Positions 13,981 through 25,533 of a DNA stretch of 64,000 nt are shown here, piece after piece; the first letter of the stretch is position 1, and the number at the start of each line of letters is the position of its first letter. The stretch lies in contig CAJQMT010000009.1 in NCBI GenBank assembly GCA_905479475.1, positions 1 through 64,000 of the forward strand, in the 5' to 3' direction. The position numbers and the translations under genes were made by a program. The DNA comes from an uncultured Flavobacteriaceae bacterium. GTDB taxonomy: Bacteria > Bacteroidota > Bacteroidia > Flavobacteriales > Flavobacteriaceae. The notes under the pieces were generated by a model. That model saw only the letters and a list, made by a program, of their open reading frames with translations. It was not told the origin of the DNA and ran no database searches.

Positions 13981-14949
13981 ATGTCAAGAATATTAACAGG
14001 TGTTCAAAGTACTGGAACCCCCCATTTAGGAAATTTATTAGGAGCTATTATACCTGCTATTGAAATGGCAAACAATCCAAACAACGAGTCGTTTTTGTTT
14101 ATTGCAGACATGCACTCATTGACCCAAATAAAAGACGGTGACGTCCTAAGAAAAAACACCTACAGCACTGCTGCTGCCTGGTTGGCTTTTGGTTTAGATG
14201 TTGAAAAATCTGTATTTTACAAACAAAGTGATGTTCCTGAAGCAACGGAGCTTTCATGGTATTTGAGTTGTTTTTTCCCTTACCAACGATTGACATTGGC
14301 CCATTCTTTTAAAGACAAAGCAGACCGTTTGGAAGATGTAAATTCTGGATTGTTTTCTTATCCAATGCTCATGGCTGCTGATATATTATTGTACGATGCA
14401 GAAATTGTTCCTGTCGGTAAAGATCAATTGCAACACCTCGAAATGACACGCGATGTTGCGAGTAGATTCAATCACCAAATGGGAGAAACTTTTATTTTAC
14501 CAGAAGCTAAAATCCAGAAAGATACTATGTATGTTCCTGGTACTAACGGAGGTAAAATGAGTAAGTCTCAAGATAACACCATTGATATTTTTTTAGAGGA
14601 TAAAAAATTACGGAAACAAGTGATGAAAATTCAAACGGATAGCACTCCTTTAGAAGAACCTAAAAATCCGGATACTTGTAATTTATTTGCTCTGTATAAA
14701 TTGATTGCTTCTGAGAAACAAATCGAAGACTTAAAAGCCAAATATTTGGGTGGACAATTTGGCTATGGACACGCAAAACAAGCTTACTACGAGCTTCTTA
14801 TCGATACTTTCTCTGCCGAAAGAGAGCGTTATCATTATTACATGAACCACTTAGATGAAATAGACAAAGCGCTACTAATTGGGGCGGAAAAAGCACGAAA
14901 TATTGCCTCAGGAGTTCTGAAGCGAACACGTAAAAATTTAGGGTATTAA
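13981..14949 (+). CDS. trpS: Tryptophan-tRNA ligase
   Basis: The 322-residue class I aminoacyl-tRNA synthetase charges tRNA-Trp with tryptophan. The HIGH-type motif is 'TGTPHLGN' (residues 11-18) and the KMSKS loop is exact at 192-196 ('GGKMSKSQD'). Length is normal for bacterial TrpS. It is convergent with rpiB and their stop codons overlap by 4 bp, with no terminator hairpin between them. Confidence 0.97.
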   Translation: MSRILTGVQSTGTPHLGNLLGAIIPAIEMANNPNNESFLFIADMHSLTQIKDGDVLRKNTYSTAAAWLAFGLDVEKSVFYKQSDVPEATELSWYLSCFFPYQRLTLAHSFKDKADRLEDVNSGLFSYPMLMAADILLYDAEIVPVGKDQLQHLEMTRDVASRFNHQMGETFILPEAKIQKDTMYVPGTNGGKMSKSQDNTIDIFLEDKKLRKQVMKIQTDSTPLEEPKNPDTCNLFALYKLIASEKQIEDLKAKYLGGQFGYGHAKQAYYELLIDTFSAERERYHYYMNHLDEIDKALLIGAEKARNIASGVLKRTRKNLGY

Positions 14950-15377
14950 GAACAGCTGATTTTAGATACTCTATTTTGGTGACGTCCTCCTTCAAATGTG
15001 GTATCTAAAAAAGTTTCAACCATTTGTAATGCTTGGGGAATAGAAGTAAACCTTGCAGGTATACACAAAACATTTGCATTGTTATGCTGTTTGATAAGTG
15101 AAACGATTTCCTTGGTCCAACACAAACCAGCACGAACATTTTGATATTTATTTGCCGTCATTGCAACACCGTTAGCACTTCCACAAATAAGAACACCAAA
15201 ATCTACTTTACAAGTATCTACTACTTCAGCGACCTTGTGTGCAAAATCTGGATAGTCCACACTGTCAAAACCATCTGTTCCAAAATTTAAAACATCAATT
15301 CCTCTCTGTTCTAACAACTTTACAATAGCAAATTTGTATTCTGGTCCCGCATGATCATTTCCTATGGCTATTGTCAT
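14946..15377 (-). CDS. rpiB: Ribose-5-phosphate isomerase B
   Basis: The 143-residue protein matches RpiB/LacAB isomerases, which interconvert ribose 5-phosphate and ribulose 5-phosphate in the pentose phosphate pathway. 'MTIAIGNDHAGPEYK' opens the fold, 'LICGSANGVAMTANK' holds the catalytic cysteine and the anion-binding loop, and 'HNNANVLCIPAR' is conserved. The open frame extends 17 codons upstream to 15428, but the promoter at 15403-15434 lies inside that extension, so the ATG at 15377 is used. Confidence 0.95.
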   Translation of the reverse strand: MTIAIGNDHAGPEYKFAIVKLLEQRGIDVLNFGTDGFDSVDYPDFAHKVAEVVDTCKVDFGVLICGSANGVAMTANKYQNVRAGLCWTKEIVSLIKQHNNANVLCIPARFTSIPQALQMVETFLDTTFEGGRHQNRVSKISCS

Positions 15378-15402
15378 CTTATGTATGGTGTTAATTTGAA
15401 AA

Positions 15403-15434
15403 CAAAAGTACAATAAAATGTAGCCCACTACAAA
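15403..15434 (-). promoter_or_regulatory. rpiB promoter
   Basis: On the minus strand, TTTG (15431-15434) and TACTTTTG (15403-15410) are separated by 20 bp, an ideal Bacteroidota -33/-7 arrangement. It lies 25 nt before the rpiB ATG. Confidence 0.65.
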
Positions 15435-16095
15435 ACATTAAGTAGCAAACAATTCAATCTTCTTTTTTATAAAATCGTTCGTTATCAACAACACTTCTGA
15501 CAACTTTTTATTAAAATATTATAAATAAGCCAATTAGCTTGTTTTATAAATTGTTAACAAATAGAAGTAAAAAAAGAACAACTAAATTTGTTTTATTCTT
15601 TTAAAAAAACAATACAGCGTTGCTTACCAGTTATGCAAATTTATTTTCAATTATTTTAAGAGGAGTTATAAACATTTTAAAGGCCACTTATCAATAGTTT
15701 AATTTCTAAATATCATTAAAAAAGATAGTGCTGTTTTCAAATAAGAAGCTTGTTAACAACCTTTGTAAGGGTGATGATTTTTAATAGTTTATCTATTTCA
15801 TAACTTGTGAATAGCTGTTTATAAACTAAATGATTCTTATTTTCCAATTAATTTTCAAACAAATTATACCAGCTATTCACACTACATCATATACCATAAT
15901 AGTTTTTTTTAAATTTAAAAGAAAAATTAATTATATATATATCTGTTCATAACTACTTTTCAAATAGTATTCTTCTTATTTTACAGTAAGAATAAATAAT
16001 AGCTGAATTTAAAAGAGTAATTTTGTTTGCAGATGTAAAAACAAAAAATTAAGTTGATGATTGTTTTTGTACTTTTATTATTTAACAAACGATAG
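15435..16095. other. Gene-free AT-rich block, candidate chromosomal origin (oriC)
   Basis: About 660 bp with no credible open frame, far longer than other gaps here. It holds an extreme AT stretch (about 15896-15943, with TTATATATATAT) that could be an unwinding element. Five sites differ by one base from the DnaA-box consensus TTATNCACA: 15482-15490, 15631-15639, 15806-15814 (minus), 15873-15881 and 15944-15952 (minus). Two TTGTTAACAA palindromes lie at 15551 and 15750. Genes point mostly away from it on both sides, and parS-like sites lie 8-10 kb away. These facts are seen; origin function is inferred. A long regulatory leader for rnr is the alternative. Confidence 0.5.
15806..15881. repeat. 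12-bp perfect inverted repeat carrying DnaA-box-like ends
   Basis: TGTGAATAGCTG at 15806-15817 and its exact reverse complement CAGCTATTCACA at 15870-15881 are separated by 52 bp. Each arm contains CTATTCACA, one base from a DnaA box, in opposite orientation. The spacing is too wide for a simple terminator and no T run follows. Confidence 0.75.
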
Positions 16096-18300
16096 ATGCC
16101 AAATAAAAAGAAATTTTATAAAAAGAAGGGAAATGTTATAAAAAACCTGACCCGAAATATCATAGCTATTTTGAATAAAAATAGTGCACAAAGTTTAAAT
16201 TACAAGCAAATTTGTTCAAAATTAGAAATCAAACATGCGGATGGGAGAGCTCAGGTAATTGCAAAGTTAGAAGAACTCAAAGGACAAGGCAAGTTAGAAG
16301 AAACAGGAAAAGGGAAATACAGTGTGCATGAGAGTAAAAATTACCATGTAGGAGTGTTAGATCTTACTTCAAGTGGTAATGGTTATTTGGTTTGTGATGA
16401 TTTTGAGAAAGATGTTTTTATACCTTCTACAAACGTAAATAGAGCATTACACAATGATACGGTAAAAGTTTTTGTGTACAATAAAAGAAGAAGTTCGAAA
16501 AAAGAAGGAGATGTTGTCGAGATTATAGAAAGAGCAAAAACAAATTTTGTTGGGGTGTTACAATTGAGTAAAAATTTTGGTTTTGTAATACCAGACAATC
16601 CGAAAATGTACGCAGATATTTTTGTTTCCAAAGATCACTTAAATGGAGCGGTTGATGGAGACAAAGTAATAGCCAATTTAACCGATTGGCCGCAAAACTC
16701 AAAAAATCCTTTTGGAGAAATTACACAAGTATTAGGAAAGCCAGGAGAACACAATACTGAAATTCACAGTATTTTGGCAGAGTATGGTTTGCCTTATGAA
16801 TTTCCTAGTAGAGTTGAACAAGAAGCAGAAAATTTAGATGTAACTATTACTCCAAAGGAAATTTCGAAACGACGGGATATGCGGAATGATTTGACCTTTA
16901 CTATAGATCCAAAAGATGCTAAAGATTTCGATGATGCATTATCTTATAAGTTGTTAGAAAACGGAAATTATGAGATAGGAATTCACATAGCAGATGTTTC
17001 TCATTATATAGATCAAAATTCTGAATTAGAAAAGGAAGCTTACGAGCGAGCTACTTCTGTATATTTGGTAGATAGAGTAGTTCCGATGTTGCCAGAAAAA
17101 TTATCCAATGGTGTGTGTTCGTTGCGCCCACATGAAGAAAAATTAACTTTCTCAGCTGTTTTTGAATTGAATGAGAATGCTACTATTGTCAAGGAGTGGT
17201 ATGGAAGAACCGTTACGTATTCCGATCAGCGTTTCGCATACGAAGAAGCACAAGTGATTATAGAAGAAGGAAAAGAGAACGAAACCATTACGATTTCTGA
17301 AAAGATTTCAATTCAAGAAGGGAGTTATGTTGTCTCAAAAGAAATCGTAAATGCGGTTTTGAAAATGGATGCTCTGGCTAAAAAAATGCGTAAGAAACGT
17401 CTGAATGCAGGAGCCATAACTTTTGATAAAGTAGAAGTAAAATTTCAGCTAGATGAAGATGCGAACCCGTTGGGAGTATTTTTCAAACAATCCAAAGACG
17501 CAAACAAATTGATTGAAGAATTCATGCTGTTAGCCAATAGAAAAGTTTCTGAATTTGTAAGTAAAAAAGGAGGGAAGGATAATAAAAACACATTTATTTA
17601 CAGAGTACATGATGAACCCAATATAGACAAGTTAACGGCTTTGCAAGGAATTGTGCAGAAATTTGGATATCAAATAGATATACAATCAAGAAAATCTACT
17701 TCCGAGTCGATGAATCAGTTACTGAAAGATGTACATGGTAAAGGCGAGTCCAATATGATTGAAACCTTGGCAATTCGTTCTATGAGTAAGGCAGAGTATA
17801 CCACTCAAAATATTGGACATTATGGACTGGCATTTGGGTATTATTCTCACTTTACCTCTCCAATCCGAAGATATCCAGACGTGATGGCACATCGTTTGTT
17901 GCAACATTATTTAGATGGAGGTAAAGCACCCAATCAAGAAGAATACCAAGAAAAGTGCAAGCATTCATCAGAAATGGAGTATTTAGCAACCAAAGCAGAA
18001 AGAGATTCTATCAAATACATGCAAATAAAGTACATGCAAGATCATGAAAATGAAGAATTCAAAGGCGTAATTTCAGGAGTGACGGATTGGGGTATCTATG
18101 TAGAAATCATTGATAACAAATGCGAAGGAATGATAAGAGCCCGAGACTTGACGGACGATCACTATATTTTTGATGAAAAACAATACGCTATGGTTGGTCA
18201 AGACTCAAAGAAAAAATATCAATTAGGAGATGAAGTTACGGTAAAAGTGAAACAAGCAGATTTAGAAAGAAAACACCTAGACTTTCATTTAGTTATATAA
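16096..18300 (+). CDS. rnr: Ribonuclease R
   Basis: The 734-residue 3'-5' exoribonuclease degrades structured RNA. Its order is an N-terminal winged-helix region, cold-shock domains (about 80-220), the RNB catalytic domain with the acidic cluster 'TIDPKDAKDFDDALS' (about 270-284), and a C-terminal S1 domain ('FKGVISGVTDWGIYVEI'). Length is typical of Bacteroidota RNase R. A weak promoter element (TACTTTTA, 16070-16077) lies upstream. It is followed 18 bp later by a head-GIN gene and is the first plus-strand gene right of the candidate origin. Confidence 0.96.
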   Translation: MPNKKKFYKKKGNVIKNLTRNIIAILNKNSAQSLNYKQICSKLEIKHADGRAQVIAKLEELKGQGKLEETGKGKYSVHESKNYHVGVLDLTSSGNGYLVCDDFEKDVFIPSTNVNRALHNDTVKVFVYNKRRSSKKEGDVVEIIERAKTNFVGVLQLSKNFGFVIPDNPKMYADIFVSKDHLNGAVDGDKVIANLTDWPQNSKNPFGEITQVLGKPGEHNTEIHSILAEYGLPYEFPSRVEQEAENLDVTITPKEISKRRDMRNDLTFTIDPKDAKDFDDALSYKLLENGNYEIGIHIADVSHYIDQNSELEKEAYERATSVYLVDRVVPMLPEKLSNGVCSLRPHEEKLTFSAVFELNENATIVKEWYGRTVTYSDQRFAYEEAQVIIEEGKENETITISEKISIQEGSYVVSKEIVNAVLKMDALAKKMRKKRLNAGAITFDKVEVKFQLDEDANPLGVFFKQSKDANKLIEEFMLLANRKVSEFVSKKGGKDNKNTFIYRVHDEPNIDKLTALQGIVQKFGYQIDIQSRKSTSESMNQLLKDVHGKGESNMIETLAIRSMSKAEYTTQNIGHYGLAFGYYSHFTSPIRRYPDVMAHRLLQHYLDGGKAPNQEEYQEKCKHSSEMEYLATKAERDSIKYMQIKYMQDHENEEFKGVISGVTDWGIYVEIIDNKCEGMIRARDLTDDHYIFDEKQYAMVGQDSKKKYQLGDEVTVKVKQADLERKHLDFHLVI

Positions 18301-23606: not shown

Positions 23607-23622
23607 AGTTCCACGTGGAACA
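23607..23622. other. parS-like partition site, upstream copy
   Basis: AGTTCCACGTGGAACA matches the ParB-binding parS consensus TGTTCCACGTGGAACA in 15 of 16 positions. GTTCCACGTGGAAC (23608-23621) is a perfect palindrome. It lies between ybeY and mnmG, ending 9 nt before the mnmG ATG. An identical 16-mer follows mnmG. Function as a ParB-loading site is inferred from the consensus. Confidence 0.8.
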
Positions 23623-23631
23623 TGAATCGGA

Positions 23632-25509
23632 ATGAGTTTATTTACAGATACATATGACGTAATTGTAGTCGGTGGGGGTCATGCAGGATCAGAAGCCGCA
23701 GCAGCAAGTGCAAACATGGGAGCAAAAACTTTGTTGGTTACCATGAGCTTACAGAATATAGCACAAATGAGTTGTAATCCGGCTATGGGGGGAATTGCCA
23801 AAGGCCAAATAGTGCGTGAAATTGACGCCCTAGGTGGGTATAGCGGTGTCGTCACAGATGAAACAGCCATTCAGTTCAAGATGCTCAATAAGAGCAAAGG
23901 TCCTGCGATGTGGAGTCCACGTGCACAAAGCGATAGAATGCGTTTCGCAGAAAAATGGCGCACCATGCTGGAGCAAACTGATAATTTGGATTTTTACCAA
24001 GACATGGTTCGAGGTTTGTTGATTGAAGAGAATCAAATCAAAGGAATCAAAACAACACTTGGATTTGATATCAAAGCTAAAACAGTAATCATAACAGCAG
24101 GTACATTTTTAAACGGCTTGATTCATATAGGCGAAAAAACTTTTGGAGGAGGTAGAGCTGGTGAAAGTGCCTCTACAGGAATTACCGAAGATTTGGTTAA
24201 AGTTGGTTTTGAATCAGGTCGAATGAAAACTGGTACTCCGCCACGTGTAGACGCACGATCTTTGGATTTTTCGAAGATGATAGAGCAACCAGGAGATGCA
24301 AATCCTGAAAAATTTTCTTACCTATCAGAGACAAAGACCTTAGAGGAACAACGTAGTTGTTATATGGCGTACACGTCGCAGGAAGTCCATGATTTGTTGC
24401 GTACGGGTTTTGATCGATCTCCTATGTTCAATGGTCGAATTCAAAGTACAGGACCGAGGTATTGCCCCTCTATTGAAGATAAAATTGATCGATTTGCGAC
24501 CAAAGACAAACATCAAATTTTTGTGGAGCCTGAAGGTTGGGATACGACAGAGATTTATGTAAATGGCTTTTCTACGTCTTTGCCAGAAGATGTGCAGGAC
24601 GAAGCCTTGCGTAAAGTTGCGGGTTTTGAAAATGTCAAGTTTTTACGTTTTGGTTATGCGATCGAATACGACTTTTTTCAACCGACTCAATTGAAACATA
24701 GTTTGGAGACTAAGCTTGTGAAAAATTTATTTTTTGCAGGACAAATTAATGGAACCACAGGATATGAAGAAGCAGCAGCTCAAGGAATGATGGCTGGAAT
24801 AAACGCTGCATTAAAAGTTCAAAAGAAAGAACCATTCGTTTTAAAGCGCCACGAAGCTTATATTGGTGTGTTGATTGATGATTTGATTACTAAGGGGACA
24901 GAAGAGCCTTATCGAATGTTTACATCGCGTGCAGAATACAGGACTTTGTTACGTCAAGACAATGCGGATTTGCGACTGACACCAAAAGCATATGAGCTGG
25001 GTATTGCATCGCAAGAGCGTATGGATCGGGTGATTGAAAAACAAAAGAAGACAGATTTGTTTGTGTCTTTTTTAAGAGACACAAGCGTAGGTCATGAAGA
25101 CGTAAACCCTATTTTAGAAGAGAAAAATTCTGCATTGATTTCGCAGTCGATGAAAATGTTTAAGTTGGCCGCGCGTCCGCAATTGAATTTTGAAGATGTA
25201 AAGAAATTCCCAAAAGTTTCAGAGTTTATTGAGGCTAATGGAATTGATAGAGAAGTAGTAGAGCAAACGGAAATTCATGTGAAATACGCCGGATATATTG
25301 ACAAAGAGAAAAGAAATGCTGACAAGCTTACGCGTTTAGAAAACGTCACGATACCAGAAAACTTTGATTATTCAAAAGTGAAATCTTTGTCTACAGAAGC
25401 ACGACAAAAATTGACTTTAATAAAACCTGTCACGATTTCACAGGCAAGCAGAATTAGCGGCGTTTCTCCGAGTGATGTTTCTGTTTTATTGGTGTATATG
25501 GGTCGCTAA
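23632..25509 (+). CDS. mnmG: tRNA U34 carboxymethylaminomethyl synthase, FAD subunit MnmG
   Basis: The 625-residue flavoprotein works with MnmE to modify U34 of certain tRNAs. The FAD-binding motif is 'DVIVVGGGHAGSEAAAA' (residues 8-24). 'CNPAMGGIAKGQIVREIDAL', 'GTFLNGLIHIGEK' and 'PPRVDARSLDF' are GidA family signatures. The C-terminal helical MnmE-binding domain ends 'GVSPSDVSVLLVYMGR'. Length is normal. It is bracketed by identical parS-like sites, and gidA next to the origin is a common arrangement in bacteria. Confidence 0.98.
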   Translation: MSLFTDTYDVIVVGGGHAGSEAAAASANMGAKTLLVTMSLQNIAQMSCNPAMGGIAKGQIVREIDALGGYSGVVTDETAIQFKMLNKSKGPAMWSPRAQSDRMRFAEKWRTMLEQTDNLDFYQDMVRGLLIEENQIKGIKTTLGFDIKAKTVIITAGTFLNGLIHIGEKTFGGGRAGESASTGITEDLVKVGFESGRMKTGTPPRVDARSLDFSKMIEQPGDANPEKFSYLSETKTLEEQRSCYMAYTSQEVHDLLRTGFDRSPMFNGRIQSTGPRYCPSIEDKIDRFATKDKHQIFVEPEGWDTTEIYVNGFSTSLPEDVQDEALRKVAGFENVKFLRFGYAIEYDFFQPTQLKHSLETKLVKNLFFAGQINGTTGYEEAAAQGMMAGINAALKVQKKEPFVLKRHEAYIGVLIDDLITKGTEEPYRMFTSRAEYRTLLRQDNADLRLTPKAYELGIASQERMDRVIEKQKKTDLFVSFLRDTSVGHEDVNPILEEKNSALISQSMKMFKLAARPQLNFEDVKKFPKVSEFIEANGIDREVVEQTEIHVKYAGYIDKEKRNADKLTRLENVTIPENFDYSKVKSLSTEARQKLTLIKPVTISQASRISGVSPSDVSVLLVYMGR

Positions 25510-25517
25510 GAAGCGAC

Positions 25518-25533
25518 AGTTCCACGTGGAACA
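25518..25533. other. parS-like partition site, downstream copy
   Basis: The same 16-mer AGTTCCACGTGGAACA begins 9 nt after the mnmG stop codon. The centre-to-centre distance between the two copies is 1911 bp. No T run follows, so it is not a terminator. Confidence 0.8.

Follow-up and report, generated by a model that had tools for sequence, protein, structure and literature searches.

A conserved core in the rpiB–rnr gap marks a probable chromosomal replication origin in Flavobacteriaceae

The gene-free gap between rpiB and rnr

The window analyzed here, a 64,000-nucleotide stretch covering positions 1–64000 of the 71,104-base contig C9, belongs to a Flavobacteriaceae genome of 1.84 Mb in 54 contigs. 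Within it, rpiB and rnr diverge around a region without genes, which an earlier note had singled out as a candidate replication origin. The features of the locus and of its right-hand neighborhood are as follows.

14946–15377, minus strand: rpiB (ribose-5-phosphate isomerase B), left flank; NCBIfam/Pfam matches, start placed at ATG 15377
15378–16095, no strand: putative oriC region, no genes, 718 bp, 78% AT; composition, skew and box scans
15482–15490, plus strand: putative DnaA box TTATCAACA; box scan
15666–15674, plus strand: putative DnaA box TTATAAACA; box scan
15806–15817, minus strand: left half of a perfect 12-bp inverted repeat (other half at 15870–15881), with a CTATTCACA box in reverse orientation
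15816–15824, minus strand: putative DnaA box TTATAAACA; box scan
16096–18300, plus strand: rnr (ribonuclease R), right flank; NCBIfam/Pfam matches
23608–23621, no strand: parS-like site GTTCCACGTGGAAC, just before mnmG; genome-wide motif scan
23632–25509, plus strand: mnmG/gidA, origin-proximal marker gene
25519–25532, no strand: second, identical parS-like palindrome GTTCCACGTGGAAC, just after mnmG; genome-wide motif scan

Most homologues of RpiB align only from about residue 17 or 18 of the open reading frame that starts at GTG (14946–15428), so the true start is probably the ATG at 15377, and the longer frame is 17 codons too long. With this correction, the gene-free block described in the earlier note was borne out and extends over 718 bp (15378–16095). 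Its AT-richness, which had been called extreme, is 78.5% compared with 62.9% for the window as a whole; among 660-base segments of the 64 kb, AT content peaks in the one that starts at 15463, and the best one elsewhere reaches 69.8%. A long TA-rich tract is present as described, at ~15930–15942, and the segments of lowest DNA stability in the 64 kb (60, 100 and 150 bp) start at 15882, 15902 and 15874, so that a stretch predicted to open easily adjoins the putative DnaA boxes. The claimed strand bias also holds, with 10.1 of 13.3 kb of coding sequence on the minus strand to the left of the gap and 13.1 of 17.3 kb on the plus strand within the next 20 kb to the right. Two TTGTTAACAA palindromes, spaced 199 bp, lie at 15551–15560 and 15750–15759. 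Among the named matches listed, the closest RNase R proteins include those of Tenacibaculum, Polaribacter, Algibacter, Kordia, Aquimarina and Flavobacterium, and on this basis the family, labeled f1, is taken to be Flavobacteriaceae; a genome of the same genus (G002) is listed at 4.6 Mb, a large difference from 1.84 Mb within one genus label.

The single best GC-skew changepoint in the 64-kb window is at 15985, and the positions within 2 log units of it (15536–16238) take in most of the rpiB–rnr gap. The cumulative GC-skew minimum of the window falls at 15984, and none of 500 permutations of 1-kb blocks gave a changepoint as strong. To the right of the gap, GC3 skew is +0.124 for plus-strand genes and +0.126 for minus-strand genes; this equality indicates that gene strand is not the cause of the right-side skew. 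To the left, GC3 skew is weak (−0.001 for nine minus-strand genes and −0.066 for four plus-strand genes).

The earlier note had counted five near-matches to the DnaA box, and this claim stands only in part. For the classical E. coli-type box, no enrichment was detected in the gap when TTATCCACA was scanned with at most one mismatch against a Markov null (one site, P = 0.19), and eight sites were found with at most two mismatches (P = 0.011). The form TTATNCACA is absent from the gap and occurs 70 times genome-wide compared with 81 for its reversed control, so the classical box gives no support. In contrast, the family-type box TTATNNACA, a form picked after looking at the gaps of relatives, has four exact copies in the gap (P = 0.003), a count attained by 0.4% of sliding windows. 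Over 23 gaps (22 relatives and this genome; seven of 30 loci were left out, having no rnr within the 3.4 kb fetched), TTATNNACA was observed 85 times against 12.4 expected and TTATTAACA 28 times against 1.8. The gap thus contains a box cluster above chance for TTATNNACA and not for TTATCCACA with at most one mismatch; the E. coli-box argument is weak, and the case is carried by the family-specific box together with the core described below. The arms of the inverted repeat (15806–15817 and 15870–15881) place CTATTCACA boxes face to face.

As the note had stated, parS-like sites lie nearby: AGTTCCACGTGGAACA occurs at 23607–23622 and 25518–25533, 7.5 and 9.4 kb from the gap. The only two perfect GTTNCACGTGNAAC matches in the 1.84-Mb genome are those flanking mnmG, and the perfect parS-like sites are therefore concentrated 7.5–9.4 kb from the candidate origin. 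Also in agreement with the note, dnaA is not adjacent, being on contig C25, and it lies 0.9–1.9 Mb from the core in nine complete relatives; that Bacteroidetes origins are commonly far from dnaA is already in print (PMC4755523). Six single-contig genomes (G014, G089, G118, G138, G154 and G195) were deposited with dnaA within ~1 kb of base 1, and in the two that were checked, G014 and G118, the core is 0.9 and 1.8 Mb away, respectively. The single-contig chromosome of G025 starts inside the orthologous rpiB–rnr gap, and the site has therefore probably been used by someone before.

A conserved core in the family and beyond

The rpiB–rnr gaps of 22 relatives have a common block of near-constant length (98–101 bases as cut). 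A core sequence model, R1, was trained on these 22 relatives with the present genome left out, and its best match in this genome is at 15860–15954; the next independent site scores 14.1 bits (E = 0.08), and a 15-bit match is the same place on the opposite strand. This core contains the least stable 60 bp of the window and overlaps the corresponding segments of 100 and 150 bp. Core anatomy was read from A3, a set of 53 distinct family cores (22 training and 31 held-out) obtained from 60 loci after leaving out six second loci of the same genomes and L003, whose core lies outside the locus and gave no match. Its parts in the present genome are as follows.

15860–15954, plus strand: origin core, ~95 bp; R1 match, 35.3 bits, E = 1.9e-8
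15864–15872, plus strand: first tandem box-like 9-mer TTATACCAG, half-site; A3 columns 6–14
15873–15881, plus strand: second tandem putative DnaA box CTATTCACA (common family form CTATTAACA); A3 columns 15–23, box scan
15884–15899, plus strand: DnaA-trio-like run of trinucleotide repeats (minus-strand reading, 3'→5'); A3 columns 26–40
15903–15942, no strand: T-tract/A-tract plus TA run, putative DNA unwinding element; stability scan of the 64 kb
15944–15952, minus strand: closing reverse putative DnaA box TTATGAACA; A3 columns 87–95

The first 9-mer is a TTATACC-type half-site (columns 6–14) in which T6, T7, A8 and T9 are nearly invariant. It is followed by the box TATTAACA in columns 16–23 and by two variable bases. 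Within the repeat element, columns 28, 31, 34, 37 and 40 are A in 53, 52, 53, 51 and 49 of the 53 cores, respectively; a T-tract, an A-tract and a TA run come next, and the closing reverse box has G88, T89, A92, A94 and A95 in all 53.

The top R1 match adjoins rnr or rpiB in 13 of 13 family genomes, two of which (G040 and G056) were training genomes, while the match in a third (G023) is weak (E = 0.0037). When 148 genomes of the order were drawn, all 21 family members had their best match (E ≤ 0.01) upstream of rnr and on the same strand. Among held-out family genomes, including the present one, the best match is beside rnr or rpiB in 31 of 31: in 28 the core lies 71–2148 bp upstream of rnr on the same strand, and in G017, G019 and G044, for which the rpiB side only was examined, it lies within 0.55 kb of rpiB. 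A scan of named loci covered the best 80, of which 42 (L233–L273 and L285) were assigned to a Flavobacteriaceae-like group from their titles and RNase R identity, one of them being titled only 'Bacteroidia bacterium'. Among these best 80 matches listed, a set that is not independent of training (L244 versus G048), the core was found upstream of rnr in 39 of the 42; none was detected in Flavivirga L240 (4 kb upstream of rnr scanned), L246 (1.3 kb) or L243 (0.2 kb). No core was found in the other 38 loci, several of which have short upstream flanks (e.g., L286, L287, L298 and L301). Among these 38 are L274, L278, L280 and L294, from Soonwooa, Kaistella and Chryseobacterium, which we take to be Weeksellaceae; here rpiB and rnr are adjacent, co-directional and 42–403 bp apart, whereas in Flavobacteriaceae they diverge around the proposed origin.

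To follow skew in relatives, 20-kb segments were taken at places all around the chromosomes of nine complete genomes. In six of the nine (G040, G056, G059, G021, G024 and G025), GC3 skew switches from negative to positive right at the orthologous gap; in two (G014 and G032) it does so within 0.4 Mb, while one (G023) is in conflict; the gap thus sits at the GC-skew minimum in the 64-kb window and, with these exceptions, in the sampled relatives. In G014, GC3 skew is −0.029 in the first 10 kb right of the gap and rises to +0.244 in the following segment. To the left of the gap in G032, it is +0.018 over 10 kb and −0.145 in the segment beyond, and the left arm is mixed, with positive values in stretches at least 1.5 Mb away. 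In the conflicting genome, rpiB and rnr are 37 kb apart, and GC3 skew is already positive at 963–983 kb, that is, 9–29 kb left of the core (991.8 kb), although raw skew flips at the core over 3–4 kb (−0.115/+0.083). This genome (L230, L229) thus has a core next to rnr that is degenerate and a DnaA whose pocket is divergent and carries an insertion, and its raw and GC3 skews disagree around the core; its origin region has possibly been rearranged recently. At finer scale, when the 20 kb around the core were scanned for the strongest raw-skew changepoint, it fell at most 0.4 kb from the core, with the direction expected of an origin, in three of seven family loci (G040, G059 and G014). In the other four (G056, G021, G024 and G032) it is 3.8–6.8 kb off and in the opposite direction, and there the local raw skew is dominated by gene-strand effects.

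Outside the family, 25 of 127 genomes have an R1 match at E ≤ 0.01, mostly weak, and nine of these 25 had loci to inspect. Seven have the core next to a divergent rpiB (52–58% identity to the RpiB of the window) and without rnr; five belong to family f7 (G174, G101, G133, G149 and G118), one to f15 (G113) and one to f3 (G062). In G141 and G060, it adjoins a gene of ~500 aa, which also flanks the core in f7. Such a ~500-aa repeat protein, with YYY.GA.SSEG-like motifs, flanks the core in other families of the Flavobacteriales (L162, L164, L166, L168, L169, L171 and L172); by eye, it resembles YwqK/MORN repeats. In the single-contig genomes G118, G174 and G062, GC3 skew differs between the arms, and raw GC skew over 10 kb on each side flips at the core (−0.063/+0.072, −0.132/+0.167 and −0.153/+0.237, respectively). 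All three have their strongest local changepoint at most 0.2 kb from where the core begins, although the 2-log interval is wide (3.7 kb) in G118; GC3 skew has the wrong sign in one 10-kb half in G118 (left of the core, +0.049) and in G062 (right of the core, −0.086). Even without rnr as its neighbor, the core thus marks an origin.

Probable origin function and alternative explanations

The skew of the window, the skew of relatives and the placement of the core beside rnr or rpiB collectively support the proposal of the earlier note, and we conclude that the rpiB–rnr gap is very probably a bidirectional chromosomal oriC. A different reading would place the true origin at mnmG or the parS-like sites (23.6–25.5 kb), with the gap merely nearby. 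Ori-Finder has put oriC adjacent to or at mnmG in two other Flavobacteriaceae (PMC11278836 and PMC12843772), and mnmG and the parS-like sites are 7.5–9.4 kb from the gap. The label 'adjacent to mnmG' in those reports may denote simply the rpiB–rnr gap. The skew changepoint interval (15536–16238), however, excludes mnmG; the gap holds both the conserved core and the DNA of lowest stability; and the core in other families marks the skew flip in other gene contexts. We consider an origin at mnmG improbable, at a few chances in a hundred.

Two further explanations deny the gap a role in replication or treat it as an accident, and we give each very little weight. The core could be a regulatory or leader element of the divergent rpiB and rnr promoters, as it occupies a divergent intergenic region by the same genes in most family loci. 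It lies, however, up to 2.1 kb from rnr, it accompanies rpiB without rnr at skew flips in other families, which argues against an rnr leader element, and it is missing from the four presumed Weeksellaceae loci in which the two genes are adjacent and co-directional. Rfam and terminator scans of the core gave nothing above threshold, with a best Rfam match (E = 1.3) under the gathering score and no terminator-like site; such an element is thus barely credible. The same applies to a local compositional accident, in which a gene-strand switch happens to coincide with an AT-rich spacer. A strand switch alone shifts raw GC skew, as it does in the four relatives noted above, and the TTATCCACA near-matches are close to chance, but the right-side GC3 skew is the same for both gene strands, and the arrangement and the core recur across the family, which makes coincidence scarcely conceivable.

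The position of the gap, the anatomy of its core, the skew and the parS-like sites are direct computational observations. From them, we infer DnaA binding, melting, initiation and segregation at the oriC proposed here, and a plausible sequence of events can be outlined. DnaA–ATP would bind the dispersed TTATNNACA boxes and also the pair of co-oriented 9-mers (15864–15881). A DnaA oligomer would then grow rightwards along one strand over the trinucleotide repeats (15884–15899) and melt the unstable T/A tract (15903–15942), bounded by the reverse DnaA box, where helicases would load. Forks departing both ways would give rise to the sign change in GC skew, and parS, 7.5–9.4 kb away, may let ParB/ParA move the new origins.

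The core helps to locate an origin that is easily misplaced at dnaA; several relatives were deposited from dnaA, far from the skew flip. As a means of finding origins in draft genomes from a large environmental family, it would aid chromosome orientation, growth-rate (peak-to-trough) estimates and replicon maps.

Trinucleotide repeats, DnaA residues and comparison with known origins

The repeat element of the core was compared with the basal unwinding system (BUS) of B. subtilis, which comprises DnaA-box#6/7 and DnaA-trios. Read 3'→5' on the other strand, the commonest repeats are GAT, ATT, ATT, GGT and AGT. The third base is T in all five repeats in 44 of 53 cores, compared with 0.9% of shuffles; purines occupy the first position in 49, 53, 53, 45 and 48 of 53 (repeats 1–5); and the middle base is A in 40, 7, 2, 1 and 8 of 53. 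GAT stands first in 38 of 53, but across the 53 family cores the BUS trio consensus 3'-GAT-5' with a conserved middle adenine was not found, and the repeats mostly read 3'-RNT-5'. The present genome and G002 of the same genus carry a 1-nt insertion after the third repeat, and owing to this extra base the element of the window is outside the 44 all-T cores. By a published search rule, a box must have three or more 3'-NAN-5' trios no farther than 16 bp away (PMC8287927). This rule passes 36 of 53 family cores, but it also passes 63.8% of shuffled sequences and is therefore without discriminating power here; the window's own element passes only via a run starting 14 nt from the box. The repeat register is supported by G174 (f7), in which the homologous frame reads GGT-AAT-AAT-GAT-GAT, close to canonical trios. 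Repeat counts in the comparison that included f7 leave out rows with a misplaced box (e.g., L167, L163, L159 and L176) and G060, from which no DnaA was recovered.

In B. subtilis DnaA, Asn187 contacts the middle adenine, and Arg202 and Glu228 contact the guanine (PMC10721633). The corresponding residues are Gln, Ile and Val in the DnaA of this genome and in 11 of 12 family relatives, with which twelve further family DnaAs agree; the twelfth relative, G023, has Gln, Ile and Ala plus an insertion, and its core is also the weakest. We considered whether loss of Arg202 and Glu228 is special to this family and rejected this, as every other DnaA recovered from class Bacteroidia lacks both. Among 30 DnaAs sampled from other classes of the phylum, 21 have Ser or Thr at 202 and Glu at 228. 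Covariation of the Asn187-to-Gln change with a T or G middle base was rejected as well: Gln187 is present in six of seven f7 DnaAs too, and the repeats of G174 have a middle adenine in four of five.

We hypothesize that, with the guanine contacts gone, the first base may be any purine while the third is constant. A bolder proposal, which we advance tentatively and hold to be possible but somewhat doubtful, is that a rewritten trio code governs origin opening in Flavobacteriaceae and perhaps more widely in class Bacteroidia. DnaA would read 3'-purine-N-T-5' steps, T being the constant letter, through a pocket that has lost both B. subtilis guanine contacts (Arg202 to Ile and Glu228 to Val). If this is true, the published trio rule would miss or mis-register the unwinding elements of these bacteria. 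The constant-T run offers a direct test of how strict DnaA is for the B. subtilis trio sequence.

Few defined Bacteroidota origins were found in the literature searched. The origin of Tenacibaculum dicentrarchi was predicted by Ori-Finder (PMC4759079), and the skew-based origin of Blattabacterium lies in dapB (PMC2768785). In the main texts of the open-access literature, we found no paper on a conserved core or on rpiB–rnr as oriC, and none in the open-access literature linking the DnaA-trio with Bacteroidetes. The Ori-Finder predictions for Mariniflexile and Algorimicrobium share the mnmG neighborhood, rather than dnaA, with the present locus; they differ in that the accessible text of those reports gives no defined core and labels the site mnmG rather than the rpiB–rnr gap.

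The locus shares with bacterial oriC regions in general the gene-free AT-rich DNA, the DnaA-box cluster, the unstable stretch, the GC-skew minimum and the nearby parS, and differs from them in the remote dnaA and in a box consensus of TTATNNACA instead of TTATCCACA. Like the BUS, the 53 family cores have two co-oriented 9-mers next to the repeats, the first being only a half-site, then a short spacer, a repeat run and AT-rich DNA, and the trinucleotides are arranged along the strand that leads 3'→5' from the boxes outward. Unlike the BUS, the commonest repeats are 3'-GAT-ATT-ATT-GGT-AGT-5', with T as third base and mostly T or G in the middle of repeats 2–5, and the better-conserved box is 2 nt from the repeats, whereas the reported peak is at 10–13 bp (PMC8287927). 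The origin location, which is well supported, is thus new but of a known type, and the trinucleotide run represents a variant form of BUS trios.
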